NCBI GenBank assembly: GCA_963681505.1
Contig: OY811984.1
Location: 6,048,435-6,112,434 of the forward strand
DNA length: 64,000 nt
Direction: 5' to 3'
Source: Eunapius fragilis
Taxonomy: Eukaryota; Porifera; Demospongiae; Spongillida; Spongillidae
The notes under the pieces are model-generated. The model did no database searches. It worked only from the letters and a program-made list of their open reading frames with translations, and was not told the origin of the DNA. Positions 1 through 31,763 of the stretch are shown here, piece by piece; position 1 is the first letter of the stretch; every line of letters begins with the position of its first letter. The position numbers were made by a program, and so were the translations under genes.

Positions 1-640
1 GACAACAATTGTTGCGCGCACTGAAAATAAGACCCGCACCATTATTTTCAAATGGGACTATAATTATCGAGAAAATTGGATTTCAGCGATAATTGGGAGC
101 AAAATTATCGCTGACCAAATTTCCAGTGATTGTACAGCGTAAAACTTTCGCCTGTCCATTGACGGCGTACAATTACAATTGAGATCCGAGACATTCCAGA
201 GAAGAATTTTGAGGACGTGCCAGACCAGTGTAAAAGCTAATTCTACGTATTTCATAATTATTTCGCGGCAACATTTACATACAAGAATTCAGAAGTGTAG
301 TGTCAGGGACTGCTCTTCCTGGACGCAACTCACGCGCCATTGTGCATAAGCCAAGGAAGTGTGGATTTTTAAAATCCTACTCTCGCTATGAAGTGCATAA
401 CTCAATATAACTGGCCGGGTATATGCTATGCATAAATCTATATATGGAAGTGTCCAGCAAAATCACCCTTGTGAAGGACAAAAAAAAGAAAAGACTAATT
501 ACTATGCAGTGCGAAAGAGTATAGAGGACATAGTTGTCTCTTAGAAATGAAATAATTTGAAAACTTGAAGAAAAAAAAGCGCTATAGGTCCCTTTTCGCT
601 GCCTCGATCCCATGGGGTGGCTGCCTGCATTCATTTGTTG
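1..640. other. Left flank, no gene seen
   Basis: No coding segment with homology is visible. The only structure is a MITE-like repeat at about 443-613, annotated separately. The short open frames here have no recognisable domain. Confidence 0.5.
443..613. mobile_element. MITE-like element (GTGTCCAGC / CAGCGAAAAGGGACC ends)
   Basis: The left end carries GTGTCCAGCAAAATCACCC, as at 21165 and, with one change, near 46869. The right end carries GGTCCCTTTTCGCTGCCTCG, shared with the element ending at 22880. The interior has the same A/T-rich stretch (TTTGAAAACTTGAA) as the other copies. No coding capacity is visible. The two ends come from two related end types, so it may be a recombinant copy. 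Boundaries are approximate. Confidence 0.55.
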
Positions 641-647
641 TTCTTAC

Positions 648-1456
648 CTCTGGAAGGGAGCACTGACTGAGCTGCTGTGATCCACCAGTGCCCACTGAGA
701 ACTTCCCCAGTGGAGTACCACTGACAGAGCTTCTGGCTTAGATCAAAGAATCCTCTGAAGACTATACAGTCACGCATGAATCAGTGACTTATTTACCATA
801 GCATAGATAGTTTAGTATGCACTACACTATCTATACTGTGGTCTGAAATATCTTGTAGGGACAGATGCAAATTAACATGCAACGAACCCCTGCGTTCAAT
901 ATACACGATGAATATGCCTTATTTTTCGCTGTTGCCAGGTGTGGCTTTCCGTTGTTGCGAGTCGGTACTAGTCAAAAAATTCCAGCCCCGCCCCCATTCT
1001 TTCATTTTAAAATGCCTGGATGCATATGCAGTGTAGTAACTTATTTAACAACAATAAATAACAGCCTCTTGTAAAATGTACCGTCCTTCTTGTAATTGAT
1101 ATACCGGCTGTTACACAGAAGACGGCGCGGGGACTGAAGATTTACAGTGCCGTTGACTCAATTATAATGATTGAGTACACTTGCGTAAGAATGCTGCTCA
1201 ATCATATGATCATGCGGTGATTTTTACAAGTGATTTTAAAATCATTTGTAACTGAATTAAAAATTGATTCGAGGTCTTTTTTCTGTTTGTGTGCATGCTA
1301 CTTACGTGTATAGGTGTATCCGGGGGTCAGTGTATAGTAAATATTTCCTAACTGATTGTATTGGGGAGAGATGTCCAATACAAAGGGACTGGACTGAAGA
1401 TTCTCAGACATGCCGTTACGTCCCTCCGACAGGCTCGGGGTATAGTCCGCCGGCGT
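648..1456 (-). pseudogene. Decayed Reeler-receptor fragment (exon 1- and exon 2-like pieces)
   Basis: Two pieces match the first two coding exons of the Reeler-EGF genes at 23271 and 31763, on the same strand. The exon-1-like piece (about 1307-1456) keeps the segment around PFVLDIS and NQLGN and a GTAAGT donor. It carries a 10-bp insertion just after the YPE codons, which shifts frame, and I see no matching signal peptide upstream. The exon-2-like piece (about 648-755) keeps its GTAAGA donor but has an extra T before the QAR codons and, in the ancestral frame, a TAA stop there. The pieces are only about 550 bp apart, against 2.4-3.1 kb in the intact genes. No exon 3-8 homologues lie in bases 1-647. 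The fragment sits just 3' of CLPTM1L. Confidence 0.72.
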
Positions 1457-1603
1457 GCCTCATATTGAGAGCTGATGCTCTAACTCTAAAGGCTGATACA
1501 GCAATGTTTAATTCAGTGTTGGCGTTTGCTGCTAGCTTAATTCAACAGTATGGCATTTAATAAAGATGTGACTATACAGCCATGCCTCATACAGATCTGA
1601 TAG

Positions 1604-4600: not shown

Positions 4601-7600
4601 AAATGGTTATAGCACAACGCTGTGTTTACCATCTGTGTAATGCAAACGATGGTTAATGATGACGTTACGGTCACGTTAAAACCTGGTCGTGTAGATATTG
4701 TCACCAACCTTGATTCGTGGTATAATACCATTCCAGTGAAGCTGAATCTTAAGAGCCTTTCGCACTTTCCAAAACTGAAGGTGATTCAATATTCAGCACA
4801 ATATAATGCCTGTATGTATGTACATGTATATGACCGTACATATGTATGGCACACGTGTATGCATGGTACACATGTGCATACATATGTAAGGTACACGTGT
4901 GCACACATATGTACGGTACACGTGTGCATAAATATGTATGGTACACATGTGCATACATATGTACGGTACACGTGTGCACACATATGTACGGTACACGTGT
5001 GCACACATATGTACGGTACACGTGTGCATACATATGTACGGTACACGTGTGCATACATATGTATGGTACACATGTCCATACATATGTACGGTACACATGT
5101 GCATACATATGTACGGTACACGTGTGCACACATATGTACGGTACACGTGTGCACACATATGTACGGTACACGTGTGCATACATATGTACGGTACACGTGT
5201 GCATACATATGACATATGTACAGTACACGTGTGCATACATATGTACGGTACACGTGTGCATAAATATGTACGGTACACATGTGCATACATATGTACGGTA
5301 CACGTGTGCACACATATGTACGGTACACGTGTGCACACATATGTACGGTACACGTGTGCATACATATGTACGGTACACGTGTGCATACATATGACATATG
5401 TACAGTACACGTGTGCATACATATGTACGGTACACGTGTGCATACATATGTACGGTACACGTGTGCATACATATGTACGGTACACGTGTGCATACATATG
5501 TACGGTACACATGTGCATACATATGTACGGTACACATGTGCATACATATGTACGGTACACGTGTGCACACATCTGTACGGTACACGTGTGCACACATATG
5601 TACGGTACAGGTGTGCACACATCTGTACGGTACACGTGTGCACACATCTGTACGGTACAGGTGAGCATACATATGTACGGTACAGGTGTGCACACATCTG
5701 TACGGTACACGTGTGCACACATCTGTACGGTACAGGTGAGCATACATATGTACGGTACAGGTGTGCATACATTAGCTACCTCAATGACAGTAGCCACACC
5801 AGCAGGGGCCAACACCAGAAGGCTTGTTTTCTCATCCATCAGGTAAAGAAAGATCACAGCTTGACTGAAGCAGCGCCAGAGGACTGCAAAGATTATGTAG
5901 GCGTGATTATGGAGGTGTATGGGTATGTATGTGTGCGTGCATGATTATGGAGGTGTGTGGGTGTGTGAGTGTGTGCATGATTATGGAGGTGTGTGGTGTG
6001 TGAGGTGTGAGTGTGTGCATGATTATGGAGGTATGTGGGTGTGTAAGTGTGCATGATTATGGAGGTGTATGGGTATGTGTGTGTGCATGATTATGGAGGT
6101 ATGTGGGTGTGTGAGTGTGCATGATTATGGAGGTGTGCGTTGTGTGCATGAATATTGGGGTATGTGGGTGTGTGTGTGTGCATGATTATGGAGGTATGTG
6201 GGTGTGTGAGTGTGGTGTGTGCATGGTTATGGAGGTGTATAAATAACCACACCTGCCCTTGTTGAGAGCCCAACCATGTTGCGTCTTTTTCTCCAGTAGC
6301 TAATGTCATTTTTGAAGGCCAAGAAATCAAACAGTAGCTGGAGAGACAATGATAAGAAAGGGGGTGGAGCAATTGGAGGAGGGGAGGAAGGGAGGAGGGG
6401 AGGAAGGGAGGATGATGAAGGTGTGATGCAAAGCACAAATGGTGACCTTTTTCACCCACATGGAAAGTTGAGACAAATACAGTGAGACCAAGAAGGTAGG
6501 GACTGCCCAGGAAGATACCCTTGATATCATCAAACTCCCGGTCCGAGAACCCTGGGGACTCGACAGACACATATGCAGTATATCAACCAGCTAGTCACAA
6601 TTCCTATGCTCCCCAGCTGAACTATCCTCACAAGTCATCCTGTAGTGCACGCCCTTAATGTGACTTAGCGGCTGGGGGAGGCTTAACCAGGCCATTTGTT
6701 GTACAGACAGAACACACCTACTTATATAAACCCACAATCTAAGCACGCACTCCCCTTGACAGACACACACTCCACTTCACCAGTTCACTGATGCACACTC
6801 CAATTCACCCCTTTCACAAACACCTAGTCCTCTTCACAAACACTCAGTCTCTTCACATATACACACCCTTCACAAACACACACTCTCTTCACCAACACAT
6901 ACTCTTCTTCACACACACACTCCTATTCACACCTAATGTCTCCATCTGCTTCATAGCATTACTGAAGACAAGCCATAGCCTCAGCTGTCCAATGCCCACA
7001 GGATTATAGGAGACCTCCAATGGCATCTCCTTTGATAAAGGGAACTGGCACAGAGAAAATGGTAACACACGCACACCTCATCCCCCCTCCCCACCTTCAG
7101 GTCTGCAGTGGTGGTCTTCATGCGGTCCACATACAGTATTGGGAGGTACTGAGACGTGCCTGGGACAAGGCTAAGATAGGAGATAGGCAAATGAAGAAAG
7201 AAGAGCTGAAAAAAAAAAAGGTGTGGGGGGGGGGGCAGGGGTAATTGGAAGAGAACCTTACAAGATAGACCTCCAAAGGTCCCCAGGAAGCAACATCCTA
7301 TCAAACTTCCAGTCCTCTGAGAGGCTATGGATGCTGAGAGTAGGGATCCAGTGCGTCATAGGCTGCCCCTGGCTGGAGTTCTGGTCACAACAAGAGAACA
7401 GTGCGTGCTGTCAATATCTGCTGGATATGCGGGCTATGTGTGCTGTCAATATCTGCTGGATATGCGGGCTATGTGTGCTGTCAATATCTGCTGGATATGC
7501 GGGCTATGTGTGCTGTCAATATCTGCTGGATATGCGGGCTATGCGTGCTGTCAATATCTGCTGGATATGCGGGCTATGTGTGCTGTCAATATCTGCTGGA

Positions 7601-11702: not shown

Positions 11703-14700
11703 CTACCCTATGTCTACAGTAGCGCAGGAACTGGTTGTGATGATAACTTCATCAGGGACCATTGCATCGATTTTGGTGTTCTCTTGCATGTATGCTGGGT
11801 ACAAGTAGACGTCCTTGAATGATCCCTGGTCATTTAATTCCACCACTTCTTTCAAATGTGGTGGGGAGATGAGAAGTTTCCTCTTATCTTTAAAATGAAC
11901 AGCTACACAGACTCCACAAAGGACACACATAAATACCACCAGTACCACCCCTGCTGAGATTCCTATGATCACACCTTTCCAGAATGAGGGAAGAATGACA
12001 TCAGTCTCCATAGATGCTGCAATGGTGGGAGAGACTAGAGAAATGGAATGTTAATATTACATTTAAAAACTCATCTATTTTATATATGCTAAATCAGTTA
12101 GCAATCATAAAATTAAAATTCTAACTTCTTTCCTCACCATTTTAAGGATATTGCAATAGGATGAGCGAAGTTAAATTATCACCTCAAGTGTATCGATGAT
12201 TTAGGCAGCCCAAGTCTATTGATGACAAGTAAATAAAAACATTCTCTATGAGAAAGTTGGTGGCATATAGGATTTGAAGGCAATGGTGGTGTAAAAAGGA
12301 AGGAAACAAGGGTCTAGTAATAAGGAAAAATGGAATAGTCCTATATTTAGCACACGAACAACATACTATATCCTACATATAGAAATGTGCTAAATATAGG
12401 ACTATTCCATTTTTCCTTATTACTAGACCCTTGTTTCCTTCCTTTTTACACCACCATTGCCTTCAAATCCTATATGCCACCAACTTTCTCATAGAGAATG
12501 TTTTTATTTACTTGTTTCATTGATTTTTATTCATACCCGATTATGAGCCGTATAGCATATTAAGTAATCCATCTTGATATGAGAGGGAGGTTGTAAAGGT
12601 ACGACATACCATTGAGTGACCTTAACTCTTTTCGCCGAGCGAGATGCACGTTCAGGACTATGGCAATATCGCTGTCTTTTTTCAAGATCTGCTCGATACC
12701 TTGCACGTCGAGAGGTCCGTTCCTTTTCAGGATCTGAGGGGGCTTTTAAGGGGCGGCCGAAATAGAAGAGAGGTTATTAATTGTTGCCCCAGCGCGATGA
12801 ACCCACAAACGCATTTTGTATCGGGCCAGAAGCAGACAGCACCCTCTCCTCCCCCCTACTAATCGCATCTCGATACCTTGCGCGTCGAGAGATCCGTTTC
12901 TTTTCAGGCTCTGCTCGATAGTTTTCACGTTTGAGAGGCCCGCTTCTTTTCAGGCTGTGCTTTGTAGTTCCGCTTGGGCTGAATCTAATACGTCGTCTCT
13001 AGTTTTGAGGTACTATGCTCGTCGTTTGGCTTTCTTCTTATCCTGACGTGCATGAAGGCATTTTGAGGAAAAAAAACTTCACTAAGTTACAAAGAGCGTC
13101 AAACCTACAACGATCGAATAACAAGAATGATTATAGTACGCACGTGCACGTTATTAAAAATACATAACCGCCAAAGTTAATTACCACTATGTGTAGTGCC
13201 CAGACCGTACACATTTGATGTATACTGCTAGTACTTCGTATAAAGAGCGACGTAGGACCTATCCGAGTCGTGTCAGTGCAGTAAGCTATACGTGATTTGC
13301 TAACACAACCACCGATAATGTCATGTAGCCTCGAGACGTTTTGACCACAGAAGCGAAAATGCCAGTGAATTCTGAAGCCATTGGTGTGATTCTCATTTCT
13401 TAAAAGTGTTCCTATCCCGAGTTATGCGTGGTCAAGAACAAGAACAAGAAGAAGAAGAAGAAGAAGAACGAGAAATACGTGGGACTGGGTACGAGTTTCA
13501 AAAATTGTTTTGTTCTCTACAACCACGCGGTTTTGTGACATCAAACAAACACGAAACTGCTTGTTGTTGCCTTCTTGTACGACGACGATAACAAGGTAAG
13601 CCATCCGCTCGTCGGGAGTCTTGTTAGAAGCGGGTCGCGTTTTTTTAATGACATTCATAATCGGGGTCAAATCCTATATGAGAGTTACTAACGTAACTCT
13701 CGATTTAGGCAGCCCAAGTCTCAGTTATTGTGTCTTGTGGCATTAAAATGTGCACAAACTGCAATCCATTAGTACATTTATGAGTGGACATTTCAACTCC
13801 ATTGCATATCAATCTACAAAGTCTATGTTATAGTGCACCAAAAATCCTATTATTACTGTGATGCACTTAGGATTTCTTGGCACCATGTGTGTATGATGCA
13901 AACAAACAAGGTGAGTATAGAAATCACTCAATCAGGGAACTTATGAATATTTCAGCCTATATTTATCAAATCTATCATGGTGTGCATTATTCCTCACTAC
14001 TACATTACATGCGACAATGTGTCTGTGACATTGATCAATTCCTGATTACCCAATTGCAAAATTTCTTTTTGTTTACTTTTAACACTAATGATGCTTGAAA
14101 TCCTACAGCCACATCACTCTTTTTACATCTTGCTTCATGCATTTACATATAAATTGAAATCATGTAACAAATGAACAACATCAGCATTGAATCAATGCAA
14201 CGCAAAATCATAAGTTGTACCAGTCAGTAGTGATCTCAGCAAGAATCAATGGGTTTGCACAGTGCTCTAGTGTTTTAACATACCGGCCTTGCAAGAAGAG
14301 AATGTTACTATTATATGGAGCACCATCAGTACAACAAAACAAATAGGCCAGTATAATTGCATGCTCTGTCGCCTTTGCATGACTGCAAACACATGCATCA
14401 TGACGAAACCTCTCTTAAACAGATGAAAATTTAACTTTTCACAAGTGGAAGGAGGGGAGGAAATAATTTCTCAGTGTTGCCAGCGCATGAGCAGTACCAG
14501 CTTTTTATTGCGGGTAATAATTACATGCCCTCTCCAGAAAGGTGATAATGATATCATCCATTTTGCTAATGTTAATTACATTGCATTCTTATCCATTGCA
14601 GTGCTTACCTGAGAAGGTACATAATGATCCACTGAAGCCAGGTGCACAAATACAAGTTGTCAGAGTACCATATCCATCAACACAGGTGCCTCCATTTAGA

Positions 14701-17700
14701 CAGGTGGTTGGGGTGCAGTAGTTGTTGTCAATGGAGCAGTTTGATCCACTGAAGCCTGGTGCACAAGTACAATTGGTGTAGGTTCCATATCCATCATAAC
14801 AGGTGCCTCCATTTAGACAGGTGGTTGAGGTACAGTAGTTGTTGTCAATGGAGCAGTTTGATCCACTGAAGCCTGTCACACAATTACAAGTTGTCAGAGC
14901 ACCATATCCCTCAACACAGGTGCCTCCATTTAGACAGATGGTTGGGGTGCAGTAGTTGTTGTCAATGGAGCAGTTTGATCCCCTGAAGCCTGGTGCACAA
15001 GTACAATTGGTGTAGGTTCCATATCCATCATAACAGGTGCCTCCATTTAGACAGGTGGTTGGGGTACAGTAGTTGTTGTCAATGGAGCAGTTTGATCCAC
15101 TGAACCCTGGTGCACATATACAATTGGTGTAGGTTCCATATCCATCATAACAGGTGCCTCCATTTAGACAGATGGTTGGGGTGCAGTAGTTGTTGTCAAT
15201 GGAGCAGTTTGATCCCCTGAAGCCTGGTGCACAAGTACAATTGGTGTAGGTACCATATCCATCAACACAGGTGCTTCCATTTAGACAGGTGGTTGAGGTA
15301 CAGTAGTTGTTGTCAATGGCGCAGTTTGATCCACTGAAGCCTGGTGCACAAGTACAATTGGTGTAGGTTCCATATCCATCATAACAGGTGCCTCCATTTA
15401 GGCAGGTGGTTGGGGTACAGTAGTTGTTGTCAATGGAGCAGTTTGATCCACTGAAGCCTGTCACACAATTACAAGTTGTCAGAGTACCATAATCCTCACC
15501 ACAGGTGCCTCCATTTAGACAGGTTGTTGATATACAAAATGGAAGGTCAATGCTACAGTTATTTCCAGCAAAGCCTAAAACGCAATTGCAAGATGTCAGA
15601 GTACCATATCCCTCAACACATGTGCCTCCATTTAGACAGGTGGTTGAAATGCAGTAGTTGTTGTCAATGGAGCAGTTTGATCCACTGAAGCCTGGTGCAC
15701 ATGTGCAATTGGTGAAGGTACCGTAGCCCTCAACACAGGTGCCTCCATTTAGACAGGTGGTTGGGGTACAAAATGGAAGGTCAATGCTACAGTTATTTCC
15801 AGCAAAACCTAGGACACAATTACACGCTGTCAGAGTACCATATCCCTCAACACAGGTGCCTCCATTTAGACAGGTGGTTGAGGTACAGTGGTTGATGTCA
15901 TTGGAACAGTTTGATTCACTGAAGCCTGTCACACAATTGCAAAATGTCAGAGTACCATATCCCTCAACACATGTGCCTCCATTTAGACAAGTGGTTGAGG
16001 TACAGTAGTTGTTGTCAATGGAGCAGTTTGATCCACTGAAGCCTGGTGCACAAGTACAATTGGTGTAGGTTCCATATCCATCATAACAGGTGCCTCCATT
16101 TAGACAGGTGGTTGAGGTACAGTAGTTGTTGTCAATGGAGCAGTTCGATCCACTGAAGCCTGGTGCACAAGTACAGTTGGTGTAGGTTCCATATCCATCA
16201 TAACAGGTGCCTCCATTTAGACAGGTGGTTGAGGTACAGTAGTTGTTGTCAATGGAGCAGTTTGATCCACTGAAGCCTGATGCACAAGTACAATTGGTGT
16301 AGGTTCCATATCCATCATAACAGGTGCCTCCATTTAGACAGGTGGTTGAAGTACAGTAGTTGTTGTCAATGGAGCAGTTCGATCCACTGAAGCCTGGTGC
16401 ACAAGTACAGTTGGTGTAGGTTCCATTTCCATCATAACAGGTGCCTCCATTTAGACAGGTGGTTGAGTTACAGTAGTTGTTGTCAATGGAGCAGTTTGAT
16501 CCCCTGAAGCCTGGTGCACAAGTACAATTGGTGTAGGTTTCATATCCATCATAACAGGTGCCTCCATTTAGACAGGTGGTTGAAGTACAGTAGTTGTTGT
16601 CAATGGAGCAGTTCGATCCACTGAAGCCTGGTGCACAAGTACAGTTGGTGTAGGTTCCATATCCATCATAACAGGTGCCTCCATTTTGACAGGTGGTTGA
16701 GTTACAGTAGTTGTTGTCAATGGAGCAGTTTGATCCACTGAAGCCTGGTGCACAAGTACAATTGGTGTAGGTACCATATCCATCATAACAGGTGCCTCCG
16801 TTTAGACAGGTGGTTGAGGTACAGTAGTTGTTGTCAATGGAGCAGTTTGATCCACTGAAGCCTGGTGCACAAGTACAATTGGTGTAAGTTCCATATCCAT
16901 CATAACAGGTGCCACCATTTAGACAGGTGGTTGAGTTACAGTAGTTGTTGTCAATGGAGCAGTTTGATCCACTGAAGCCTGGTGCACAAGTACAATTGGT
17001 GTAGGTTCCATATCCATCATAACAAGTGCCTCCATTTAGACAGGTGGTTGAGTTACAGTAATTGTTGTCAATGGAGCAGTTTGACCCACTGAAGCCTGGT
17101 GCACAAGTACAATTGGTGTAGATACCGTATCCATCATAACAGGTGCCTCCATTTAGACAGGTGGTTGAGGTACAGTAGTTGATGTCAATGGAGCAGTTTG
17201 ATCCCCTTAAGCCTGGTGCACAAGTACAATTGGTGTAGGTACCATATCCATCATAACAGGTGCCTCCATTTAGACAGGTGGTTGACGTACAGTAGTTGTT
17301 GTCAATGGAGCAGTTTGATCCACTGAAGCCTGGTGCACAACTACAATTGGTGTAGGTTCCATATCCATCATAACAGGTGCCTCCATTTAGACAGGTGGTT
17401 GAGGTACAGTAGTTGTTGTCAATGGAGCAGTTTGATCCACTGAAGCCTGGTGCACAAGTACAATTGGTGTAGGTTCCATATCCATCATAACAGGTGCCTC
17501 CATTTAGACAGGTTGAGTTGCAGTAGTTGTTGTCAATGGAGCAGTTTGATCCACTGAAGCCTGGTGCACAAGTACAATTGGTGTAGATACCGTATCCATC
17601 ATAACAGGTGCCTCCATTTAGACAGGTGGTTGAGGTACAGTAGTTGTTGTCAATGGAGCAGTTTGATCCACTGAAGCCTGGTGCACAAGTACAATTGGTG

Positions 17701-20700
17701 TAGATACCATATCCATCATAACAGGTGCCTCCATTTAGACAGGTGGTTGAGGTACAGTAGTTGTTGTCAATGGAGCAGTTTGATCCACTGAAGTCTGGTG
17801 CACAAGTACAATTGGTGTAGATACCATATCCATCATAACAGGTGCCTCCATTTAGACAGGTGGTTGAGGTACAGTAGTTGTTGTCAATGGAGCAGTCTGA
17901 TCCACTGAAGCCTGGTGCACAAGTACAATTGGTGTAGGTACCATATCCATCATAACAGGTGCCTCCATTTAGACAGGTGGTTGAGGTACAGTAGTTGTTG
18001 TCAATGGAGCAGTTTGATCCACTGAAGCCTGGTGCACAAGTACAATTGGTGTAGGTTCCATATCCATCATAACAGGTGCCTCCATTTAGACAGTTGGTTG
18101 AGGTACAGTAGTTGTTGTCAATGGAGCAGTTTGATCCACTGAAGCCTGGTGCACAAGTACAATTGGTGTAGGTTCCATATCCATCATAACAGGTGCCTCC
18201 ATTTAGACAGGTGGTTGAGGTACAGTAGTTGTTGTCAATGGAGCAGTTTGATCCACTGAAGCCTGGTGCACAAGTACAATTGGTGTAGGTTCCATATCCA
18301 TCATAACAGGTACCTCCATTTAGACAGTTGGTTGAGGTACAGTAGTTGTTGTCAATGGAGCAGTTTGATCCACTGAAGCCTGGTGCACAAGTACAATTGG
18401 TGTAGGTTCCATATCCATCATAACAGGTGCCTCCATTTAGACAGGTGGTTGAGGTACAGTAGTTGTTGTCAATGGAGCAGTTTGATCCACTGAAGCCTGG
18501 TGCACAAGTACAATTGGTGTAGGTTCCATATCCATCATAACAGGTGCCTCCATTTAGACAGGTGGTTGAGGTACAGTAGTTGTTGTCAATGGAGCAGTTT
18601 GATCCACTGAAGCCTGGTGCACAATTGCATATTTTTGTAGAATATTTATCATACACACATGTTCCTCCATTGTAACATTGATCATTTTGACATATATCTG
18701 TGTATGCAAAATATTTCATGTCATTCCAACACTGACAATCATATATATTAGAATCACTCACCAATGATTGTGACACCAACGTTTTTGTCACCAATAATAT
18801 ATAACGAAGGGACCAAGGTTTGGAGATTAAAATTGAATGAAGTTGTTGAGCTTTGACCCTTGCGGACCAAACGATCCGTTACAATGTAGTCTTTTAGCGT
18901 TGCAATATGATGAGTATAAAAGTAATCATTAGCAGAATCAAATTGAAACAAGTCTGCAACTGCTGCTGCACTATCAAAACTGCTTGTAATGAAAAGCAAG
19001 ATGTTTGTACCTAGTGGTACTCTCATTGGATTAATATAGAGAGTGAAGGTAAGTAATGTTGTCCCGACTGGAGTAGTGTTAAGGAATCTTACTTCATAGA
19101 AGGTGGCATTGAAGAGTGCTGTATATCCATTGGGTACTGTTGATGTGGAGTTTGGAAAGGCCAGGAATTAGCATTGTAGCATAAACTGCCTAGTTAAACT
19201 CACATGGAAGACACAGTCTGGATGTGTAGTTTCCATAGTAATAAGGTGGGCAGGAAGTTACACAGGTGCTTCCGTTCAAGTACAGAGGATCAGCACATCC
19301 TGGGGAGGAGGCAGTCAGTTATGCCACACCTTAACATTCAACTCTTTACCTTCTGGTATGGTAGTGGTGTTTAAGGTTGCATAGAAAGTACTGACCCCAT
19401 CATAGAACTGGACCACCACTGCATAGCTTCAATATAGGATGACACTATAACTAATAATTGGTCTACATCTACATCTTGGAATGCAGTATAACATTTAATA
19501 ACCTTGCAACCACCATTGTGGATGAGGTGCCATTTCAGACAGTTTATATTTAAAGTTATAAATATATCTATATGATTCCTATAACAGCATGGATTCTTTT
19601 AACAACATAGAAAAATACTACCTAAGAAATAGTGGCTGTGGTCAGGAGAGTTCAAGGACCCATCCAGCAGACATTCTAGTCACCAATTGGGACAACGGCA
19701 TCTCAGCAGCATTCGATATCACTGTTGCATCTCCACTCAATTCTAGTACCATTACGGAAGTGGGCATGTACTCAGGTGCTGCGGCAAGAGCAGCTGAGCT
19801 CAGAAAGCACACTCAAAATGACTCTAAATGTGCTGAACTAAGTTGGAAATGTATTCCACTGGCGGTAGAGTGTTATGGTGCATGGGGTCCAGAGGCTTTA
19901 AAGGCCTTCTCACAAGTAGCCACTCGTTTAGCCATTTGTGGGAATAACTCTAAATCTATGGCATTGACTGACCTCTTTGGTCGCCTCAGTCACTCACTAA
20001 TTAGAGCTAATGCTCATGCCATTCTGAGTCGTTCCTACTCCCACCTTGTGCAGCAGGTGGATGAACTTTGTGTGTAATTGTTTGTATTGTGTGTGGTTAT
20101 ATATAAGTTTAATACATTAATGTGTACAAAATCTAATCTTGAATAACTTTGTATACATGTACATATATTATATTATTCATTAATGTGTACAATATTATTG
20201 TTTTTATTTATTAAATTGAGAAATAGGAGGGTTTTATATTAGCACAGCTCATTAGACTGATATAGATAATGATAAGGCCACTGACTATAAGCCTATGTTG
20301 ATGAAATGATACGATGCATCATTGTGTATCAATATATGAAAAAAGTAAAAGTGCACTCACAGTAAGACTATAGGTCCACTCCCTGCAGCTGGTGCAGTCC
20401 ATCTTAAGGTAACATTGTTCTTCACACTGTTATCTGTATGTGTGACTGCACTCTACAGAAGAGTTAGCCTGGATTGGTGTCTGCATTCATTTTTTGTTCT
20501 TACCTCTGGAGGGGAGCACTGACTGAGCTGCTGTGATCCATTAGTGCCCACTGAGAACTTCCCCAGTGGAGTACCACTGACAGAGCTTCTGGCTTGGATC
20601 AAGAACCCATGGATGTCCTCACCAATCAGGTTTACTGAAATTTAATATATCCGAGTTATGTGCCTCATGCTATAGATGGCAATGAATATACGGAATACAC

Positions 20701-23271
20701 CTAGGCAATATTGATCATGCCCTATTTAAATGTTTACAATTACGTCCCCTGATGAAAATTAATGAGCCGGTTTTATGCATATGCCTTCGTGCCATTATAT
20801 TTCGAGCAATTTACAGCTGGCCACCAATCAAAGCATGTGCTTTCAACCTATCACAGTCATTGACGCCTGTGGCATGCAGCATAAGTTGAGTTATACTCGG
20901 GTGTGTATTTCTGGGTCATGACCCTAGCCTGTGAAGGTTGGGTTTTTTAAGAGTAAGCAGGATTCTTAGCATACTAGCACATGTATTGCAATCTGCAGTA
21001 AGTTCCATTTAGTCTCGTGGAGCATGACTTTATCGATTTTACCGGTGGCAAGTGATTGACCACTTACATTTTGATACTGACCTTGATATGGGCTGTATAA
21101 TATCAGAATGTGGGCGTTCAGTCATTTGGTGTCGGTATTAATAGATGATACATTATTTGGAACAGTGTCCAGCAAAATCACCCTTATGATACTATATCAA
21201 ATTTTCCAGGACAAGCAAAAGAACAGTAACGCTCGCACTGAAATGTATGGCTAATTATAAATTCAGTGCCTAATAACTTTATGATGGATAGTCCAATTCA
21301 GGATGCGTAAGGACCATTTGATAAAAGCTCTTTGGAGTTCTCGGAAAATGAAAAATTTTGAAAACTTGAAAAACTATCCAGAAGGGTGATTTTGCTGGAC
21401 ACCGTCCCATTTTTATTTTACTGTGTATATTATAAATAACAGTCTGTAGGTGTGATGGGAACTCTCTGTTGTTCTGCTATGCAATGAACCAATATGTTGG
21501 AATGTAAAATGGATGGAATAGCCATACACACCTGCAAAGGAAGGGTATCTATTACAGCTGGCAGCAGCTCGTCCATTATTTTATGTGGCCTGGCAGGGCC
21601 AATGTGTGATGCTACAAATAGCTTAATTTGAAGTGGGGAAGGGCACTGCCAACTGGCAGTCCGTGATTTAAACCATGCATGGCCATGCAGAGTGACTAGG
21701 AGGATGGAGGCTTGGCTTACATAACAGCTCGGAAGATTTGAGGCAAGTCGCTTTTCATTAAAACGTAGCCTGTTTAAAAAGCGTATTATATGCAAGTAGT
21801 ACTGCTAGACAATATACGTGACACTATGTGCGAGCATGTATACATATATTCGTTGTGTTGGATATTTTAAAGACAAGTCATCAATCGATATGTTATCAAT
21901 CGATGTATTTCCCAAAGGCCTTTCTGCATGCATGCATGCATACATATAAATATAAACACATGCACAACGGGGAAAACATCGCATGCATGGCGCTATGTTG
22001 CCGAGCATACCGCAGAGTCGTTCAAGCGTACATGCGCTTTACCTGCAGGGCCCGCATATCGTGAATATTACAATGCAGATGTATGCACATGCATATGCAT
22101 GCATGCCCGTGCGTGTTAAGCGCATACCGATGGTACCTGGGCTCACCTACAGCATGCATCCAAGTGAATTCTGGTATATCCATAGCATACGTGTGATATC
22201 ACGGGGTTCATGTTGTAATTGCGTAGCTCAATCCACGTTTGGGCATGCATTCTGGCCGCAATATATTTATATACATAATATTATATGCCGGTACACATGC
22301 CTGCAGGGTATGGCACATGATTACACTGATGACTACATGCAATAACTGACCGGGCTTGTAATTTTCAAGATAAGCAATTTAAAGAAGACGACCTAACCAT
22401 TGAAATGTATATTAATCCGTAAGTAAAAATTAAAATCAATAACTATATACAGGGACCCTCTACGTTCAAACCTCACGGGGTATCGGACCTTGTAATGTCG
22501 GCACGGGTGCAGTGCAAGCTAGCCCCCAGAATACATTTTCCCGTAGAGAAATGGTGCATGTAGTATGAAGTGATGTCGATTGCGTTAATCGCTGGGAAGT
22601 TATAGCGCTTCAAACGTGATGCAGTTGTATAACAGCGAAAGGGGACCTACAGCAATTAACCCTATAGCGCATATATTATTTTTTTAATTTTCCAGGGAAG
22701 GAGCATTAAAGTTGACGCATGCAATTAAAATGTACACGTAATTAAAAATTCAGGCCACTGTAACTCCGCCATGATGTATGGACAGACTAATTTCCAGTGT
22801 GTAAGAAAGATAGAATATGAAATAATGTTGAAAACTTGAAAAAATATTCGCGAGGTCCCTTTTCGCTGCCTCGATCCCATAAATTTTCAAGAGAAGTTGG
22901 CCGTTACGATTGAAATTTATGTCGAATAAAAAATTCAGCTAGAGCTTTATACCTCCGCGACGATGGTCCAGCTTTAAATGTGTAGGTATTTTGTCATTAT
23001 ACATCCTACATACGTGCATACATGTACGTACATATACACATATACCCTTACGTGTGTAAGTATATCCAGGGGTGTAGTAGATATTTCCTAACTGATTGTA
23101 CAGAGGAGAGATGTCCAACACAAAGGGACTGGACTGAAGATCCTCAGACGTCCCGTTATGTCCCTCGGGGTATATCCTCGCACAGGCTGCTGCCGGCGCT
23201 CCCGTCGAACTAGCTCTTACCGCTGTCGCTATGCATGCTAGCAAACAGGCTACTAACAGCGGGCCTCCCAT
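11703..23271 (-). CDS. Reeler-EGF repeat transmembrane receptor, gene A (about 35 EGF domains)
   Basis: Eight exons join in frame to about 1803 aa: 23271-23052, 20634-20504, 20452-20361, 19426-19350, 19299-19204, 19136-18762, 18697-14609, 12034-11703. Order: signal peptide (1-20, LLVACLLACIATA), Reeler domain (about 30-173; CARIYPEGHNG, SPF, GFLIQARSS, SAVTHTD, LRWTAPAAGSGPIV), Cys-rich link (174-205; STCVTSCPPYYYG), an unrecognised domain (206-330), about 35 EGF units of 39 aa (331-1693), a transmembrane helix (about 1715-1739; GVVLVVFMCVLCGVCVAV) and a 65-aa tail. Nearly every EGF unit has CLNGGTC and CAPGFSGSNC, matching the O-fucose (Cx4[ST]C) and O-GlcNAc (CxxG[FY][ST]Gxx C) consensus known from Notch. 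The whole EGF array is one 4089-bp exon. A cell-surface adhesion or recognition role is inferred. No kinase or SH2-type tail domain is seen. Confidence 0.88.
12226..12514. mobile_element. Perfect 129-bp inverted repeat (hairpin / foldback element)
   Basis: Arms 12226-12354 and 12386-12514 are exact reverse complements over all 129 bases by eye, with a 31-base loop. Nothing is coded. It lies in the last intron of gene A, so the pre-mRNA would carry a 129-bp RNA duplex. It may be a foldback transposon or MITE, a hairpin-RNA locus, or an inversion-type assembly artefact. Confidence 0.85.
13437..13470. repeat. (GAA)n tract
   Basis: GAAGAAGAAG microsatellite within the gene A last intron. The short acidic frame over it is not supported as a gene. 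Confidence 0.85.
19427..20360 (+). mobile_element. Retroelement-type C-terminal domain remnant antisense in gene A intron 3
   Basis: An open frame at 19589-20077 encodes 162 aa on the strand opposite to the host gene. It contains HPADILVTNWDNG, AAFDITVASPL, GAAARAAELRKHTQND and CIPLAVECYGAWG. From memory of the family, such a segment closes many reverse-transcriptase-type open frames in sponge and cnidarian genomes, and the spaced D...FDITV pattern resembles a PD-(D/E)XK nuclease core; this was not checked by search. No reverse transcriptase domain is present, so it is a 5'-truncated piece or a captured domain. The frame is intact to its stop codon, which suggests a fairly recent insertion. 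Confidence 0.55.
21154..21410. mobile_element. MITE with GTGTCCAGCAAAATCACCC terminal inverted repeats
   Basis: Left end at 21165 reads GTGTCCAGCAAAATCACCCTT; the right end at 21382-21402 is its reverse complement, AAGGGTGATTTTGCTGGACAC. The interior is A/T-rich without coding capacity and has TTTGAAAACTTGAAAAA near the right end, as in the elements at 443 and 22620. It lies in intron 1 of gene A. No clear target duplication is seen. Confidence 0.8.
22620..22880. mobile_element. MITE with CAGCGAAAAGGGACCT terminal inverted repeats
   Basis: The left end carries CAGCGAAAGGGGACCT (22633) and the right end AGGTCCCTTTTCGCTG (22852-22867), near-perfect inverted copies. The right flank CCTCGATCCCAT also follows the end at 595-613. 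The interior has the TTGAAAACTTGAAAAA block shared with the GTGTCCAGC-ended element, so the two families probably share an origin. Located in gene A intron 1. Confidence 0.65.
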
Positions 23272-23976
23272 ATCGAGGTGAATGCTGGTGGAGATTACGT
23301 CATGCATTCAATACCGTGCAGTTCACGCATGCATGTCAATCGTGTATGCAGAAATTTGAGGTTGCATGCCGGAAGTGGTCAGTGACGCAATCGCTCAAAC
23401 TACCCTTCGTTCATTGCACTCCACCAAACGCCCCAAAAGCCCTGGGAACTGGAATATATGGCATGCAACCTTATCGGATCGGAAAGGAAGTTTAGTTTTA
23501 ATTTTGGCAGAGGAACGGCATGTGACGTCACGCGCGCTTTACATCATGTGTATTGTTGCCATAATGCTGGGCACGAGAAAGCAACAAGAGGACGAGAGCA
23601 AACGACGGAGGGAAGAAGGCGGGGATCCATCTCACGTGGTACATATTTAGATAACTTCATTACGTATTGCTCTTATAACCAGTCCTCACCTCTCCTCCAT
23701 GCATGGCTCCTTCATCTACCAGTATCTCAGCATACATGTCTAATGACACCATTAGTAGACAAACGCATGGGTCAAGATAATTGCATACCTTTTCACAACC
23801 AATTAAAGCCCATAAACCATTATGATACCCTGAGGCTAGCTGCTAAGTGCAGATAACTCTATCCAATGGTTACCTCGTGATTCTACAGCATATATATCAA
23901 TACACCTTCTGGTGAGCATAGCAACAACAAACTAGCTACAATGGTTGTACACCCATTACATAGAGCAGTGCCAACA

Positions 23977-26900
23977 CTACCCTATGTCTGCAGGAGCACT
24001 GGAACTGGTTGTGGTGATGACTTCATCAGGGACCATTGCATCAACGCTGGTGTTCTCTTGCACGTATGCTGTGTACCAGACACTCCTGAATGGTTCCTGG
24101 TTGTTTAATTTCAAATGCAGTGGGGAGATATGTTTCCTCCTATGTTTAAAATAAACAGCTATGCAGACTCCACAAAAAATACACACTAATAACACCAGCA
24201 CCATCCCTGCTGCAATTCCTATGATCACAACTTTCCAGAATGAGAGAAGCACAAAATCATTCTCCGTAGATGCTGCAATGGTGGGAGGGAGGAATGTACT
24301 AGCAGTAACTATTTGTATCTTAGCACTTAGCAATGTATGGTGAAACTAAATTGTAACGCCCACCACTTCATTTTTCTAACATAAAAGGTAGACATCTACA
24401 TTTTAATACACATAGTAATCAAAAGCTGTAGACCATTCAGTGCATGGTGCATCCATATGAACCTATATGAGGTAAGCTGGTGTGCACAAATGAGTGAAGT
24501 TAGATTAACCCGCACAAGTCGAGAGCACAACATCTTAGTATTGTGCGTATTGTAGCCTACTAATTAAATAGGAAATTGTGCACACGCTACTTAGCTGCAA
24601 TACGTAACTACATATATAAGCAGTTGCTGCCAAACACCATGGTAATTTTTGAATGAAAAACTGCAACACATGCCAGACACATGTTTAAACAAAGCGGTAT
24701 GTTAGTTGATGTATCACTGGTACACCAAAACTGGCATTTCAATTCATAATTAATAAGGAACTGTCCATCTGACAGATTGAATATTAACATTCCAAATTGT
24801 ACACCTCATTCCCTGCATTGCTTTGCATCAGTATATTGATTTACTTACCGAGGGAAGCACATAGAGATCCATTGAAGCCTGGAGTACACATACATGTGGT
24901 TAAGATACCATATCCCTCAACACAGGTGCCTCCATTTAGACAGGTGGTTGGGGTACAGTAGTTGTTGTCAATGGAGCAGTTTGATCCACTGAAGCCTGGA
25001 GCACAATTACAAGTTGTCAGAGTATCATATCCATCATAACAGATGCCTCCATTTAGACAGGTGGTTGGGGTACAGTAGTTGATGTCTTCTGAGCAGTTTG
25101 ATCCACTGAAGCCTGGTGCACATGTACAATTGGTGTAGGTACCATATCCCTCAACACAGGTGCCGCCATTTTGACAGGTGATTGGGATACAGTAGCTGAT
25201 GTCTTCTGAGCAGTTTGATCCACTGAAGCCTGTCACACAATTACAAGTTGTCAGAGTACCATATCCCTCAACACAGGTGCCTCCATTTAGACAGGTGGTT
25301 GAGGTACAGTAGTTGATGTCTTCAGAGCAGTTTGATCCACTGAAGCCTGTCACACAATTGCAGGTTGTCAGAGTACCATATTCCTCAACACAGGTGCCTC
25401 CATTTAGACAGGTGGTTGGGGTACAGTAGTTGTTGTCAATGGAGCAGTTTGATCCACTGAAGCCTGTTGCACATGTACAATTGGTGTAGGTACCATATCC
25501 CTCAACACAGGTGCCTCCATTTAGACAGGTGGTTAGGGTACAGTAGTTGATGTCTTCAGAGCAGTTTGATCCACTGAAGCCTGGTGCACATGTACAATTG
25601 GTGTAGGTACCATATCCCTCAACACAGGTGCCTCCATTTAGACAGGTGGTTAGGGTACAGTAGTTGATGTCTTCAGAGCAGTTTGATCCACTGAAGCCTG
25701 GTGCACAATTACAAGATGTCAGAGTACCATATCCCTCAACACAGGTGCCTCCATTTAGACAGGTGGTTGGGGTACAGTAGTTGATGTCTTCTGAGCAGTT
25801 TGATCCACTGAAGCCTGGTGCACAATTACAAGATGTCAGAGTACCATATCCCTCAACACAGGTGCCTCCATTTAGACAGGTGGTTAGGGTACAGTAGTTG
25901 ATGTCTTCAGAGCAGTTTGATCCACTGAAGCCTGGTGCACATGTACAATTGGTGTAGGTACCATATCCCTCAACACAGGTGCCTCCATTTAGACAGGTGG
26001 TTAGGGTACAGTAGTTGATGTCTTCAGAGCAGTTTGATCCACTGAAGCCTGGTGCACAATTACAAGATGTCAGAGTACCATATCCCTCAACACAGGTGCC
26101 TCCATTTAGACAGGTGGTTAGGGTACAGTAGTTGATGTCTTCAGAGCAGTTTGATCCACTGAAGCCTGGTGCACATGTACAATTGGTGTAGGTACCATAT
26201 CCCTCAACACAGGTGCCTCCATTTAGACAGGTGGTTAGGGTACAGTAGTTGATGTCTTCAGAGCAGTTTGATCCACTGAAGCCTGGTGCACAATTACAAG
26301 ATGTCAGAGTACCATATCCCTCAACACAGGTGCCTCCATTTAGACAGGTGGTTAGGGTACAGTAGTTGATGTCTTCAGAGCAGTTTGATCCACTGAAGCC
26401 TGGTGCACAATTACAAGATGTCAGAGTACCATATCCCTCAACACAGGTGCCTCCATTTAGACAGGTGGTTGGGGTACAGTAGTTGATGTCTTCTGAGCAG
26501 TTTGATCCACTGAAGCCTGGTGCACAATTACAAGATGTCAGAGTACCATATCCCTCAACACAGGTGCCTCCATTTAGACAGGTGGTTAGGGTACAGTAGT
26601 TGATGTCTTCTGAGCAGTTTGATCCACTGAAGCCTGGTGCACAATTACAAGATGTCAGAGTACCATATCCCTCAACACAGGTGCCTCCATTTAGACAGGT
26701 GGTTAGGGTACAGTAGTTGATGTCTTCAGAGCAGTTTGATCCACTGAAGCCTGGTGCACAATTACAAGATGTCAGAGTACCATATCCCTCAACACAGGTG
26801 CCTCCATTTAGACAGGTGGTTGGGGTACAGTAGTTGTTGTCAATGGAGCAGTTTGATCCACTGAAGCCTGTTGCACATGTACAATTGGTGTAGGTGCCAT

Positions 26901-29900
26901 ATCCCTCAACACAGGTGCCTCCATTTAGACAAGTGGTTGGGGTACAGAAGTTGATGTCATTGGAACAGCGTGGTCCATTGAAGCCTGGTGCACAGTTGCA
27001 TGTTGTATTGGAACCTCCAATGTACACACAAGTTCCTCCATTGTCACATGGGTTAGCTTGGCATATGTCTAGGTGGAAGAAGCATTTCATGTATATCATT
27101 CACTCCACTGAATTTCAAATGAAGATCACTCACCGATGACTGTTACACCAACATTGTTATCACCTACAAGCTGATATGGAGGTATAAGGTTTTGAAGATT
27201 GAAAGTGAATGCTGTCAGGGTTGTTTGTGCCTTGTAATAGATTTGGTCTGTTATGATATAGTCACTTGCACTTGAAATGGGACGGAGATAGACATAGGTG
27301 TGAGCAGAGAGAAATGCAAAGTAATCAGATGCAAATGATGATGGACCAATATTGCCAGTAATGCTGACTATTATACCAGACCCCAATGACACTGTAGCGT
27401 TATTGACATAAATAGTGAAACTGAAAAGTGTTGTCCCAACAGGAGTGGTGTTGAGATACTTCAGGTCGTAGAAGGTGGCATTGAAGGCAGCAGCATAACG
27501 ACCAGTTACTGTATGTAGGGAAGGAAGGCTTAATGATATCTTGTGCATCATGTCTGTACACTCACATGGAAGGCACAGTCTGGATCTGTAGTTTCCATAG
27601 TAATAAGGTGGGCAGGAAGTTACACAGGTGCTTCCATTCAAGTACAGAGGATCAGCACATCCTGGGGAGGAGGCAGTCAGCTATGCCACACCTTAACAGT
27701 CAACTCTTTACCTTCTGGTATGGTAGTGGTGTTTAAGGTGGCATAGAAAGTACTGACCCCAGCAGAGTACTGGACCACCACTTCATAGCTGTGTGAACGA
27801 GGACGTATTTTTTTGTAACCCATGCAATCTAATGTACCCACACCTCACATCATGTACTAATGTACCCACACCTCACATCATGTACTAATGTACCCACACC
27901 TCACATCCTGTACTAATGTACCCACACCTCACATCCTGTACTAATGTACCTACACCTCACATCCTGTACTAATGTACCCACACCTCACATCCTGTACTAA
28001 TGTACCCACACCTCACATCCTCTACTAATGTACCCACACCTCACATCATGTACTAATGTACCCACACCTCACATCCTGTACTAATGTACCCACACCGCAC
28101 ATCCTGTACTACTTTTCACATGATGGATGTATGCTATCTCCAACACATGCAATATCCACTCACAGGAAGACTATAGGTCCACTCCCTGCAGCTGGAGCAG
28201 TCCATCTCAAGGTAACATTGTTCTTCACACTGCTATCTGTATGTGTGACTGCACTCTACAGAAGAGTTAATTCGTATACATGGGTTGGCTGTCTGTTCTT
28301 ACCTCTGGAGGGGAGCACTGACTGAGCTGCTGTGATCCATTAGTGCCCACTGAGAACTTCCCCAGTGGAGTACCACTGACAGAGCTTCTGGCTTGGACCA
28401 GAAACCCCCTGAAGTTACCTCCATTCAAGTTTACTGGGAAATTAAAGAAGGCAATAATTAAAATACCAATCAGAACTAATGGAAGAAAGTTGTGCAGCCC
28501 TCATATTGAGTTTGTTATTAAAGTTGAGATGGCTCTTCTGTATCATAACCCCGTGAAGGTTAGGAAATAAAGCGTTTTTATGAAATGGGGTTCTTAACAG
28601 AGTGGCACTGAATATCATTCAGTCTCATGCATCGCCATGCAAAGTATTGGTGTGATTTGGTACTCGACTATCCAACTAGTATTACTTTTGTGAAAAATGG
28701 AACCGATTTTTCGAATAGGAAGGTATAGGTTTAAAAGCGTACAATAGGTGTGTTTGATGTACCAGCTCAGACAACAGATTTTGACATCAGACCACAGAAA
28801 TTGTGATGTGAAACTCACCTTGCATACTTTAAGAAAAAATTGCCCAACAATTCAATGGAACCCAAACTGTATTAAATCTGGTGACTTAAGTAAAAATCAT
28901 GTCAAATGATCTGTACTACCAATCTCTCAAGAAAAAAGCTGGTGTGCTTGGTACTTGTCTTTGGAAAGATTTACCGGAGTATGTCGTGATCTCCCAAGCC
29001 ACAAATTGATTATCTGTTGACCACTCATTTCACCATGTGCTAATGATAGGGTTGGATGGAGCAAAGGGAAAATACCTATTAGAACTTGCAGCAACTCATC
29101 CATTATTGCGCTTGGCTCGGGAGTGGTTAAGAACACTGATATGGCTGGCATTGGCTCATCATGGATTTTAATTTTGATCTGTCCTTGTGGTGGAATTCCT
29201 TCAATTCATCACAATGAGTTATGGTTATGGGATATCACAACAGCATCGCTACTCACCAAGGTATGTCATGAAGTGGAAACAGAACCTAGCCTACAACCTT
29301 TATCAGGAGACCACCTCAAATACAAAACAGTCAATGGTGGAAGTTGTGACTGAAAACTTTTGGTGTAAGAAAAAACAGGAGGCTTTTTTTGGCGTTAAAG
29401 TGTTCAATCCCTCTTCAAAGTCTTACATCAGTACACCTCACAGTTATGATTGCCTTGAATGCATATGAAATTAGTAGTTGAGTATGGTTGCTTCTCACTC
29501 CTTGTCTTTTCAACCTCTGATCGACTTGATCCTGCTGCAACAGTTAAGTAGTTGATGGAGGTTACCCATTTGGGGGGGGGGGGGGGGTATTCCTTGGGGA
29601 TGAGGGATAGTATCTAAATCTCCACGGGGACTATTACCTGACAATAACACTCCTCTTACCTCCTTGCATGACACAATCAGCAAACATCCATCAGCACGTT
29701 TACAATCCCTGCCGGGATTGGAGTTATGGGTATTCATAACCCCACAGACCTAGCCAGAATTACATCTCGGAGAGGCATAGTAAATACAGTATATACAATC
29801 AAGTGGAGGAAATCATTCAACTTCTTGGAGCATGAAGAGCAAACTCAGTTCTAGCTACCCTGGATATAAAGCAACACATGCAGCACACAAAGGCAGTAGA

Positions 29901-31763
29901 TTTTATAACATCGTCTTGCCTAACAGCTATACCAACTGCTTGTCACCATTTTGACTATTCTTCAAATGAATTCAGTGACTCCCTAGCAATGCGATACTGG
30001 CAAGTTACTACTTGAGATGGCTGTGGAGACAGTCTTAGCTGTGAACATGCCTTAGAATTCTTGGCAATCTAGCTTCTTTAGTATGCAAGAACATTGCTAG
30101 AAAATCTGTAGTGCAAGAGGCCAATGACATTGCCAACACTTCCTGGATCCACCACTGATATTGCTTATACGTACTTAAATAAGTGATATTCAATCCAAGA
30201 CTTCCAAAGCTGGCCCCATGGATCACTTGTAATATTACATGGGACTCAAAGTTTAACCACTTCTTAACCCCATTCATGCACTCAGTGTCCTGTGCAAAGG
30301 ACATTTGTCCCTTAAATACAAACGCTGTACCAGCAATTTTAGTATGGAAAGCTTCAAAATTATCTGCAATAATTATGATTAGGTGTAATGACATAGTGTG
30401 TCCTCTGAAATGATTGTAAAACTGATCAGAACCAATCGAAAAGGTAGGAGGAGGGGGTGGAGAGGAAATAACGTGGTATATGGAAATCATTTATTTTTGT
30501 TTATATGAACAAATTTATATGTTGATGATTGATCTTCAATTTGATTCTTGCGCATCATGAATATGATTTACCGGCCTGCATGAGTTGTTCATAACCGGTG
30601 CATTTTGGTCCAAATCTTGTCCAAATTTTGAAAAACAAAAATTATATTTCATTTGTTATCTTCGTACAGTAAAAGTCATTCACATCTAATGTTGGCCATG
30701 CAAGCATACCCTGTGACCAATAGATAACTATTAACGAATTCACACAACCATGTTCTTATTAGGGAAAAACCCACATCCCTTAACCAGGACAATAGTGTGA
30801 GTGGATAGAGGTTAAGTCTACTGAACATCCAATATTAATAAGTACATGCGCTTTTGCGCGAGTGGAAAAAAAAACACTCTATAATGATATGGTGTAGTAA
30901 GAACTTAATTTTGCGTGGAATCTGCATGCCTCTATGTGGGCAAACAATAACTGCCGGTACGCATCGAAGCCAAAAAGTTGACCACAAATTGAAAGTTGCC
31001 TGCTATTGTTGGTACTCTGTTTGTACGTGCGGTATTCCTTACGGTTGCTTAATACCAAGGCCACACAGCTCATATGGAAAAAGAAAAATTTAAATGGTGT
31101 GGCTGCCTGGAAAATATATACCGGTTCGATAATTGACTTATAGCTTGCATAATCGATGTAATAATCGATCTACTGTAATGTCTATTGTCATGGCTGCCAT
31201 CTTGTGGTGTACAATTGCACACCCGCGGGTGCACAACAAATAAATTTTTTAATATTATACATAAGATTGTATATCGCCTTTATTATGCCTCTTTTTTTCA
31301 TAACATGAGTTGATAGCAGTCTTGTGTTGTGATCCACTACTGTATCCGCGCAACCCATTGCAAGAAAACATGCATGTACCATGCAGCATGCTAGTATAGT
31401 ATTATATGTGCATGTATAATTATGCAGGTTTATGTAATGTGTACGTGTGCATGGTCTGCTCATATATGCATAGACTTTACACGCAAGAACCCGGGCTGCC
31501 CATGCATACAGTCCCCATGCATTGATACCGCGTACATCCTCACATGTATAGGCATATCCAGGGGTGTAGTAGATTTTCCCTAACTGATTGTACAGAGGAG
31601 AGATGGCCAGCACAAAGGGACTGGTCTGAAGATCCCCAGACGTGCCGTTATGTCCCTCGGGGTATATCCTCGCACAGGCTGCTGCCGGCACTCCCGTCGA
31701 ACTTGCTCTTACCGATGTCGCTATGCATGATAGCAAACAAGCTACTAACAGCGGGCCTTCCAT
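23977..31763 (-). CDS. Reeler-EGF repeat transmembrane receptor, gene B (about 19 EGF domains)
   Basis: Tandem paralogue of gene A with the same eight-exon plan: 31763-31544, 28433-28303, 28255-28164, 27788-27712, 27661-27566, 27508-27134, 27068-24849, 24308-23977; about 1180 aa. Order: signal peptide (MEGPLLVACLLSCIATSVRA), Reeler domain (to about 173; LNLNGGNFRGFLVQARSS, GPIVFLYEVVVQY), Cys-rich link, the same unrecognised domain (206-330), about 19 EGF units (331-1070), transmembrane helix (about 1097-1121) and cytoplasmic tail. EGF units are mostly the EDINYC / VEGYGTLTSCNC type, whereas gene A is mostly IDNNYC / YDGYGTYTNCTC. The tail keeps QENT and DAMVPDEVI in common with gene A, so it probably has a conserved partner. 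Seven exons match gene A exactly in length. Head-to-head with the ankyrin gene at 32617. Confidence 0.88.
27826..28110. repeat. 28-bp minisatellite in gene B intron 3
   Basis: About ten tandem copies of TAATGTACCCACACCTCACA followed by TCCTGTAC, with few changes. It sits in the intron between exons 3 and 4, the same intron that in gene A holds the retroelement remnant. Confidence 0.93.
29123..29468 (+). mobile_element. Retroelement-type protein remnant, antisense in gene B intron 1
   Basis: Two overlapping plus-strand frames read as one broken protein. The first has IPSIHHNELWLWDITTASL and KVCHEVETEPSLQPLSGDH; the second, after a frameshift, has ENFWCKKKQEAFFGVKVFNP and SKSYIST. From memory, such CHEVETEP...LQPLSGE and VFNP motifs are typical of the C-terminal part of reverse-transcriptase-type frames in sponges and corals. 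The frame break marks it as dead. Same kind of element as at 19589, but a different member. Confidence 0.55.

Follow-up and report, generated by a model that had tools for sequence, protein, structure and literature searches.

The 64,000-nucleotide stretch of contig OY811984.1 of the demosponge Eunapius fragilis analysed here (the window, numbered from its first letter) carries two intact tandem genes on the minus strand, gene 2 (23977–31763) and gene 1 (11703–23271), which have matching eight-exon plans. Both encode a signal peptide, a Reeler domain, a four-cysteine link, a domain of ~125 amino acids, an array of EGF repeats, one membrane helix and a short tail. They belong to a larger cluster, in which the same predicted ectodomain is joined to different membrane anchors.

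In the spliced model of gene 2, which is one open frame of 1168 amino acids, exon 1 (31544–31763) encodes the signal peptide and the start of the Reeler domain, which continues through exons 2 (28303–28433) and 3 (28164–28255) and ends in exon 4 (27712–27788). Exon 5 (27566–27661) encodes the link, and exon 6 (27134–27508) the ~125-residue domain, which falls in no known family and recurs in ten copies in the genome. Exon 7 (24849–27068) holds 19 EGF repeats by cysteine pattern, and exon 8 (23977–24272) the membrane helix, the short tail and the stop codon. The spliced model of gene 1 is one open frame of 1803 amino acids with 35 EGF repeats by the same count. Its signal peptide and Reeler domain are spread over exons 1 (23052–23271), 2 (20504–20634), 3 (20361–20452) and 4 (19350–19426), followed by the link (exon 5, 19204–19299), a divergent exon-6 domain that is 48% identical to that of gene 2 (18762–19136), the EGF array (exon 7, 14609–18697) and the helix, tail and stop codon (exon 8, 11703–12034). 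Each last exon contains one strongly hydrophobic segment, and the two are 68% identical to each other.

All seven introns of both genes have GT–AG borders, and the intron phases agree exon for exon. The borders were picked by hand from GT–AG, reading frame and the other copy, and are therefore not independent proof of the gene models. The two models do not begin exon 8 at the same point, gene 1 accepting either AG, and the weak spot of the gene 1 model is its exon-4 acceptor (TATATTGAAG). Near this acceptor, within intron 3 and on the opposite strand, lies an open frame of 171 amino acids (19562–20077, plus strand), perhaps the remnant of a mobile element. A broken third fragment had also been proposed in the first-pass annotation. 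It is real, with a decayed part of exon 1 (1307–1459, minus strand) and a part of exon 2 with an internal stop (633–746, minus strand), but it lies at 633–1459, outside the range to which the family had been assigned.

Domain content and the exon-6 domain

Both window genes qualify as Reeler-domain proteins, since they match PF02014 with 78 bits (gene 2, E 1.3e-21) and 70 bits (gene 1, E 3.4e-19) at a curated cut-off of 21. With the Pfam EGF model PF00008, 19 stretches are matched in gene 2 but no more than 10 separate stretches in gene 1, for which the EGF_TEN model gives 14. In Pfam scans over all exons of both genes, the matches above cut-off were confined to Reeler, EGF-type models and DUF7167; the last, on the EGF exon of gene 2 (25.6 bits against a cut-off of 24.4), was taken as spurious. 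The spliced frames, these matches and the single hydrophobic segment bear out the architecture first proposed for the two tandem genes, with the link and exon 6 free of Pfam matches in the translated models.

The Reeler domain is followed by reelin repeats in reelin, by Spondin_N and TSP1 in F-spondin, and by DOMON and cytochrome b561 in FRRS1; none of these partner domains was matched in the scans of either gene. With Notch the window genes have in common a long EGF array and one helix. The Notch hallmarks are an LNR/NOD region and ankyrin repeats, whereas the scans gave no LNR, NOD or ankyrin match, and a Reeler domain stands at the N-terminus. Teneurins are marked by a YD-repeat body after their EGF part; the window genes are not placed among them, having only EGF_TEN matches, over their EGF arrays. 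Neither gene matches 7tm_2, the last exons encoding one helix and a short tail.

At E ≤ 1 Pfam matches neither the link nor exon 6, and at E ≤ 5 a single chance-level match appeared, in one of twelve related sequences. A profile of exon 6 was built from the ten cluster copies and five relatives, among them the Ephydatia muelleri proteins P0071 and P0072, with P0002 of the same species left out. Outside this set it recognized P0002 (E 1.1e-20), P0003, a protein of EGF repeats and a helix (E 2.5e-5), and Geodia barretti P0074 (E 0.011), the best of 1000 shuffled sequences reaching E 0.93; no PDB sequence was found at E ≤ 5. A cadherin-like fold, the first idea by eye, was unsupported, fold comparison giving no clear match with AlphaFold models of low to middling confidence (68.5 for exon 6 and 61.2 for the whole Geodia protein).

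The ten-copy cluster and its membrane anchors

Searched against the 219-Mb genome, exon 6 of gene 2 gave ten matches at E ≤ 0.001, all on the contig of the window (C14) between 5,923,962 and 6,166,463, that is, within 243 kb. The DNA read comprised C14 5,888,435–6,048,434, the window, and 26 kb around the three plus-strand copies. All ten copies (gene 1, gene 2 and c1–c8) have exons 1–6 in order and then an EGF array; seven run one way and three the opposite way. This repeated exon order, together with the domain order in other sponges, excludes chance. The family is thus tandem, as first proposed, but larger and more varied, comprising ten genes, three of which carry the seven-transmembrane (7TM) end of an adhesion G-protein-coupled receptor (GPCR). 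The number of complete EGF units ranges from 7 to 45 per gene: 20 in c1, 12 in c2, 34 in c3 (before a frame break), 7 in c4, 11 in c5, 35 in gene 1, 19 in gene 2, 14 in c6, 7 in c7 and 45 in c8. The O-fucose pattern is found in 198 of these 204 units and the EOGT pattern in 163.

Queried with exon 1, the genome gave 24 matches, half of them on C14 and the other 12, with lower scores, elsewhere; the Reeler family search gave 10, of which three fall on C14. In c1 the exon 2–3 unit is tripled in tandem, two of the units having a partial exon 2 (C14:5925702–5927496), and a lone plus-strand exon 1 lies amid minus-strand copies (C14:5979638–5979850). A second protein search (8 matches) gave exon-6 frames on other contigs, five of them letter-identical to cluster copies; those contigs therefore come from the same species.

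Six of the ten genes end in a single helix, three in the adhesion-GPCR 7TM unit and one, c8, in a region that looked lectin-like by eye. The lectin-like assignment was not confirmed, Pfam giving no such match for c8; the related protein P0004 matches Laminin_G_3 at E 0.001, below cut-off. The helix exon of the window genes (type A) occurs three times, in gene 1, gene 2 and c3. A second type is found in c1 and c7 (E 9e-7 between them), the c7 end matching the tail of Ephydatia P0002 at only E 0.8. The third type, in c6, bears a weak likeness to the gene 1 helix (E 6e-4 when searched within the small database of the cluster), and there may therefore be fewer than three kinds of single helix. In c3 a decayed c1-type helix exon with stops (C14:5982289–5982636) lies ahead of the intact type-A exon. 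The helices of five of the six single-helix copies contain GxxxG, a motif that favours helix dimers, c6 being the exception. The tails of the single-helix members match no signalling domain.

Downstream of c2, c4 and c5, exons on the same strand match the 7TM end of Ephydatia P0072 and P0071 by tblastn, and all three copies were assigned to the adhesion GPCRs by the 7tm_2 criterion; the joined exons of c5 match 7tm_2 directly (E 9.5e-23), while the evidence for c2 and c4 is the tblastn match to P0072/P0071 only. The exon for transmembrane helices 5–7 of c5 has 66 matches in the genome, of which 12 outside C14, at 65–72% identity, lie on C22 (seven), C1 (three) and C2 (two); a stop interrupts one of the 12. 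The genome search at E ≤ 0.001 found no exon 6 on these three contigs, and one of the 12 loci, on C22, has no module exons in ~8 kb upstream (one stretch masked). In the predicted gene structures, then, the ectodomain module and the 7TM type are linked at some loci and separate at others. A further 7TM-end fragment with stops, with no EGF array nearby, lies at C14:5958402–5959033. As in EGF-bearing adhesion GPCRs of the CD97 type, EGF repeats precede the 7tm_2 unit in c2, c4 and c5. By comparison, the cluster has a Reeler domain and the exon-6 domain in front, GPS was not found in c5, and the two window genes have no 7TM unit.

Relatives in other sponges

The closest named relatives are proteins of Ephydatia muelleri. 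A first protein search gave 63 matches, most of which carry EGF models only, among them Ephydatia P0001 and P0002 (the latter Em0018g240a); a third, in which the 7995 candidates with the most shared words were scored, gave five matches, namely Ephydatia P0071 (Em0006g42a), P0072 (Em0006g43a) and P0073, Geodia P0074 and Halichondria P0075. P0072 joins the link, the exon-6 domain, EGF repeats and 7tm_2, and P0071 has a Reeler domain in addition. The Ephydatia models thus show the same module with both kinds of end, P0002 being single-helix, and the join between module and 7TM unit is common to the cluster and the Ephydatia gene models. Their gene numbers suggest that the Ephydatia genes lie on different chromosomes rather than in one cluster. 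P0073 begins with a Reeler domain followed by retroelement domains, as from a prediction error or an insertion; it was excluded from the architecture count and kept in the Reeler tree. Halichondria P0075 and Dysidea P0026, which by Pfam have only the Reeler domain in common, were not counted.

Geodia P0074 (867 amino acids) is recorded under the name 'Neurogenic locus notch homolog protein 1'. It has in common with the window genes a signal helix, the Reeler domain (E 1.3e-21), the four-cysteine link, EGF repeats, one helix and a tail, with a beta-rich region at the position of exon 6; it differs in having fewer EGF repeats, a different tail and a helix without GxxxG. Geodia belongs to the Tetractinellida and Ephydatia to the Spongillida, both within the Heteroscleromorpha, and the Reeler domain, link, EGF array and helix are therefore common to two demosponge orders. 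The architecture is already in databases under automatic names, and such names mislead, as the Notch 1 label of the Geodia protein illustrates.

The search for the same domain order in other sponges thus succeeded, in P0074 and the Ephydatia models, and it qualifies the earlier description of the combination as undescribed. No printed description was found, which is weak evidence as most subscription journals lay outside the literature search, but P0074 already carries the full single-helix order. The searches yielded no family, named and characterised, that has this order. The novelty resides mainly in the cluster with its exchanged anchors rather than in gene 1 and gene 2 by themselves.

A mosaic gene, selection and possible roles

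In exons 1–5, gene 1 and gene 2 differ little at synonymous sites (pS 0.05–0.16), and the intron between exons 4 and 5 is 96% identical. By comparison, the intron between exons 5 and 6 is 51% identical, exon 6 has a pS of 0.67, and the intron between exons 6 and 7 is 58% identical. These intron and synonymous differences make gene 1 a mosaic whose exon 6 is far more diverged than exons 1–5, the likeliest cause being a recombination or gene-conversion event that had a breakpoint adjoining exon 5. Within the genome, the nearest exon 6 to that of gene 1 at synonymous sites is that of c7 (0.50), and the weakly supported exon-6 tree groups gene 1 with c7 and the Ephydatia types. The trees fit the mosaic without proving it, since one of 13 inner branches is well supported for exon 6 (16 rows) and three of 12 for Reeler (15 rows), with Geodia as a very long branch. 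For 119 of the 204 EGF units the best match lies in their own array (10 of 11 in c5, 8 of 19 in gene 2, none of 7 in c7), as expected under repeat turnover and exchange.

Selection was estimated as pooled NG86 ratios of nonsynonymous to synonymous change (dN/dS), which are averages only. Over exons 1–6 the pooled values are 0.29–0.43, indicating averaged purifying selection; exon 6 gives 0.43 for all ten copies, 0.50 for the eight close copies and 0.25 between gene 1 and gene 2, the last at a pS near saturation. Diversifying selection on exon 6 is not shown by these averages. Values above 1 are seen in two small comparisons, for exon 4 of gene 1 against gene 2 (1.30, from 26 codons only) and for the last exon of gene 1 against c3 (2.12, from few changes and with c3 broken). 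The variable recognition family envisaged in the first-pass annotation is thus upheld as to its differing repeat numbers and the very divergent exon 6 of gene 1, but finds no counterpart in the pooled ratios of exons 1–6.

In the predicted models, the locus combines a common anatomy, ten clustered copies, single-helix and 7TM ends, joins that recur in Ephydatia, and a mosaic gene 1. From these features we consider it somewhat probable that it is a cluster of sponge receptors sharing a single ectodomain module, made of the Reeler domain, the link, the exon-6 domain and an EGF stalk of variable length, which is carried on alternative membrane stems. The Reeler/exon-6 tip would bind a partner, whether this belongs to another cell, to the matrix or to a microbe, and the EGF array would hold it off the membrane at a distance set by the repeat number. 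Single-helix members may serve as adhesion tethers, co-receptors or counter-ligands, and 7TM members may respond to binding or to pull with G-protein signalling. Further members could arise by tandem duplication, by gain and loss of repeats, and by block exchange of exon 6 and terminal exons. A precedent is CD97, an EGF-bearing adhesion GPCR, with CD55 (PMC8191316), and a passage of PMC4302439 suggests that sponge adhesion GPCRs possibly bind single-pass membrane proteins. Several observations weigh against this assembly. The last-exon dN/dS of gene 2 is 0.82 against gene 1 and 0.86 against c3, so that the tail is without strong average constraint, unlike the signalling tail hoped for. No GPS was found at E ≤ 0.1 in the joined exons of c5, and that of Ephydatia P0071 is below cut-off (E 0.0011). 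The Ephydatia models are AUGUSTUS predictions (PMC7385117) in which some parts are missing or fused, and P0071 resembles a merger of two genes. The exon-6 region of Geodia P0074 is only marginally similar (E 0.011), and c3 is broken by its frame break and decayed second terminal exon. The ligand side is wholly inferred.

Recognition of other cells or microbes is plausible. If the members were immune or symbiont receptors, the tip would bind microbes or microbial molecules taken in by filter feeding and the 7TM members would signal. Clustered, unequal copies are usual for immune-type receptors and count for this reading, as does a Reeler gene of Aplysina aerophoba that responds to microbial molecules and is likened by the authors to insect defence proteins (PMC6208332). 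The averaged purifying selection on exons 1–6 tells against it, and we hold it possible but doubtful. The same purifying selection agrees with ordinary structural adhesion, by which cell–cell or cell–matrix proteins were multiplied by unequal crossing-over without any recognition code; in Ephydatia, tandem clusters whose exon structure is identical are reported to be numerous (PMC7385117). This alone leaves the 7TM members and the old exon-6 block of gene 1 unexplained, and we entertain it tentatively, as an unlikely account of the whole locus.

It is improbable that the cluster is an allorecognition locus at which allelic differences in tip and stalk decide between fusion and rejection of individuals. 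Its clustered genes, unequal repeat numbers and exchanged block in gene 1 would suit such a role. The averaged dN/dS values, however, carry no sign of diversifying selection, five of the ten exon-6 copies are letter-identical to same-species contigs, though these possibly stem from the same individual, and a term search of the main text of an Amphimedon graft study (PMC5450542) returned no mention of Reeler, EGF or GPCR. Very improbable is an artefact, in which the models fuse exons of separate genes or the locus consists largely of pseudogenes. The broken c3, the weak exon-4 acceptor of gene 1 and the prediction of the models from genomic sequence speak for it, against which stand open frames across 1168 and 1803 amino acids, the same order in the Geodia protein and the Ephydatia models, and purifying selection on exons 1–6.

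A receptor cluster with one module on alternative stems would give a tangible example of how an adhesion-GPCR ectodomain has been shuffled from one anchor to another, single-pass or 7TM. The gene-level basis on which sponges discriminate among cells, individuals and microbes is poorly known, and the cluster may offer a compact, testable surface-recognition locus. As a long shot, single-helix and 7TM members might recognize one another, or copies of their own kind, across neighbouring cells, with exon-6 tip and stalk length encoding the signalling partners; such a partner system would make the cluster a candidate locus for sponge self/non-self recognition.

Elsewhere in the window, minisatellite-like arrays at 2301–3510 and 4613–5944 are open in several frames on both strands. 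By eye, an open frame at 55244–56587 (minus strand) is a candidate phenylalanyl-tRNA synthetase, and one at 60042–60881 (plus strand) a candidate 6-phosphogluconolactonase.

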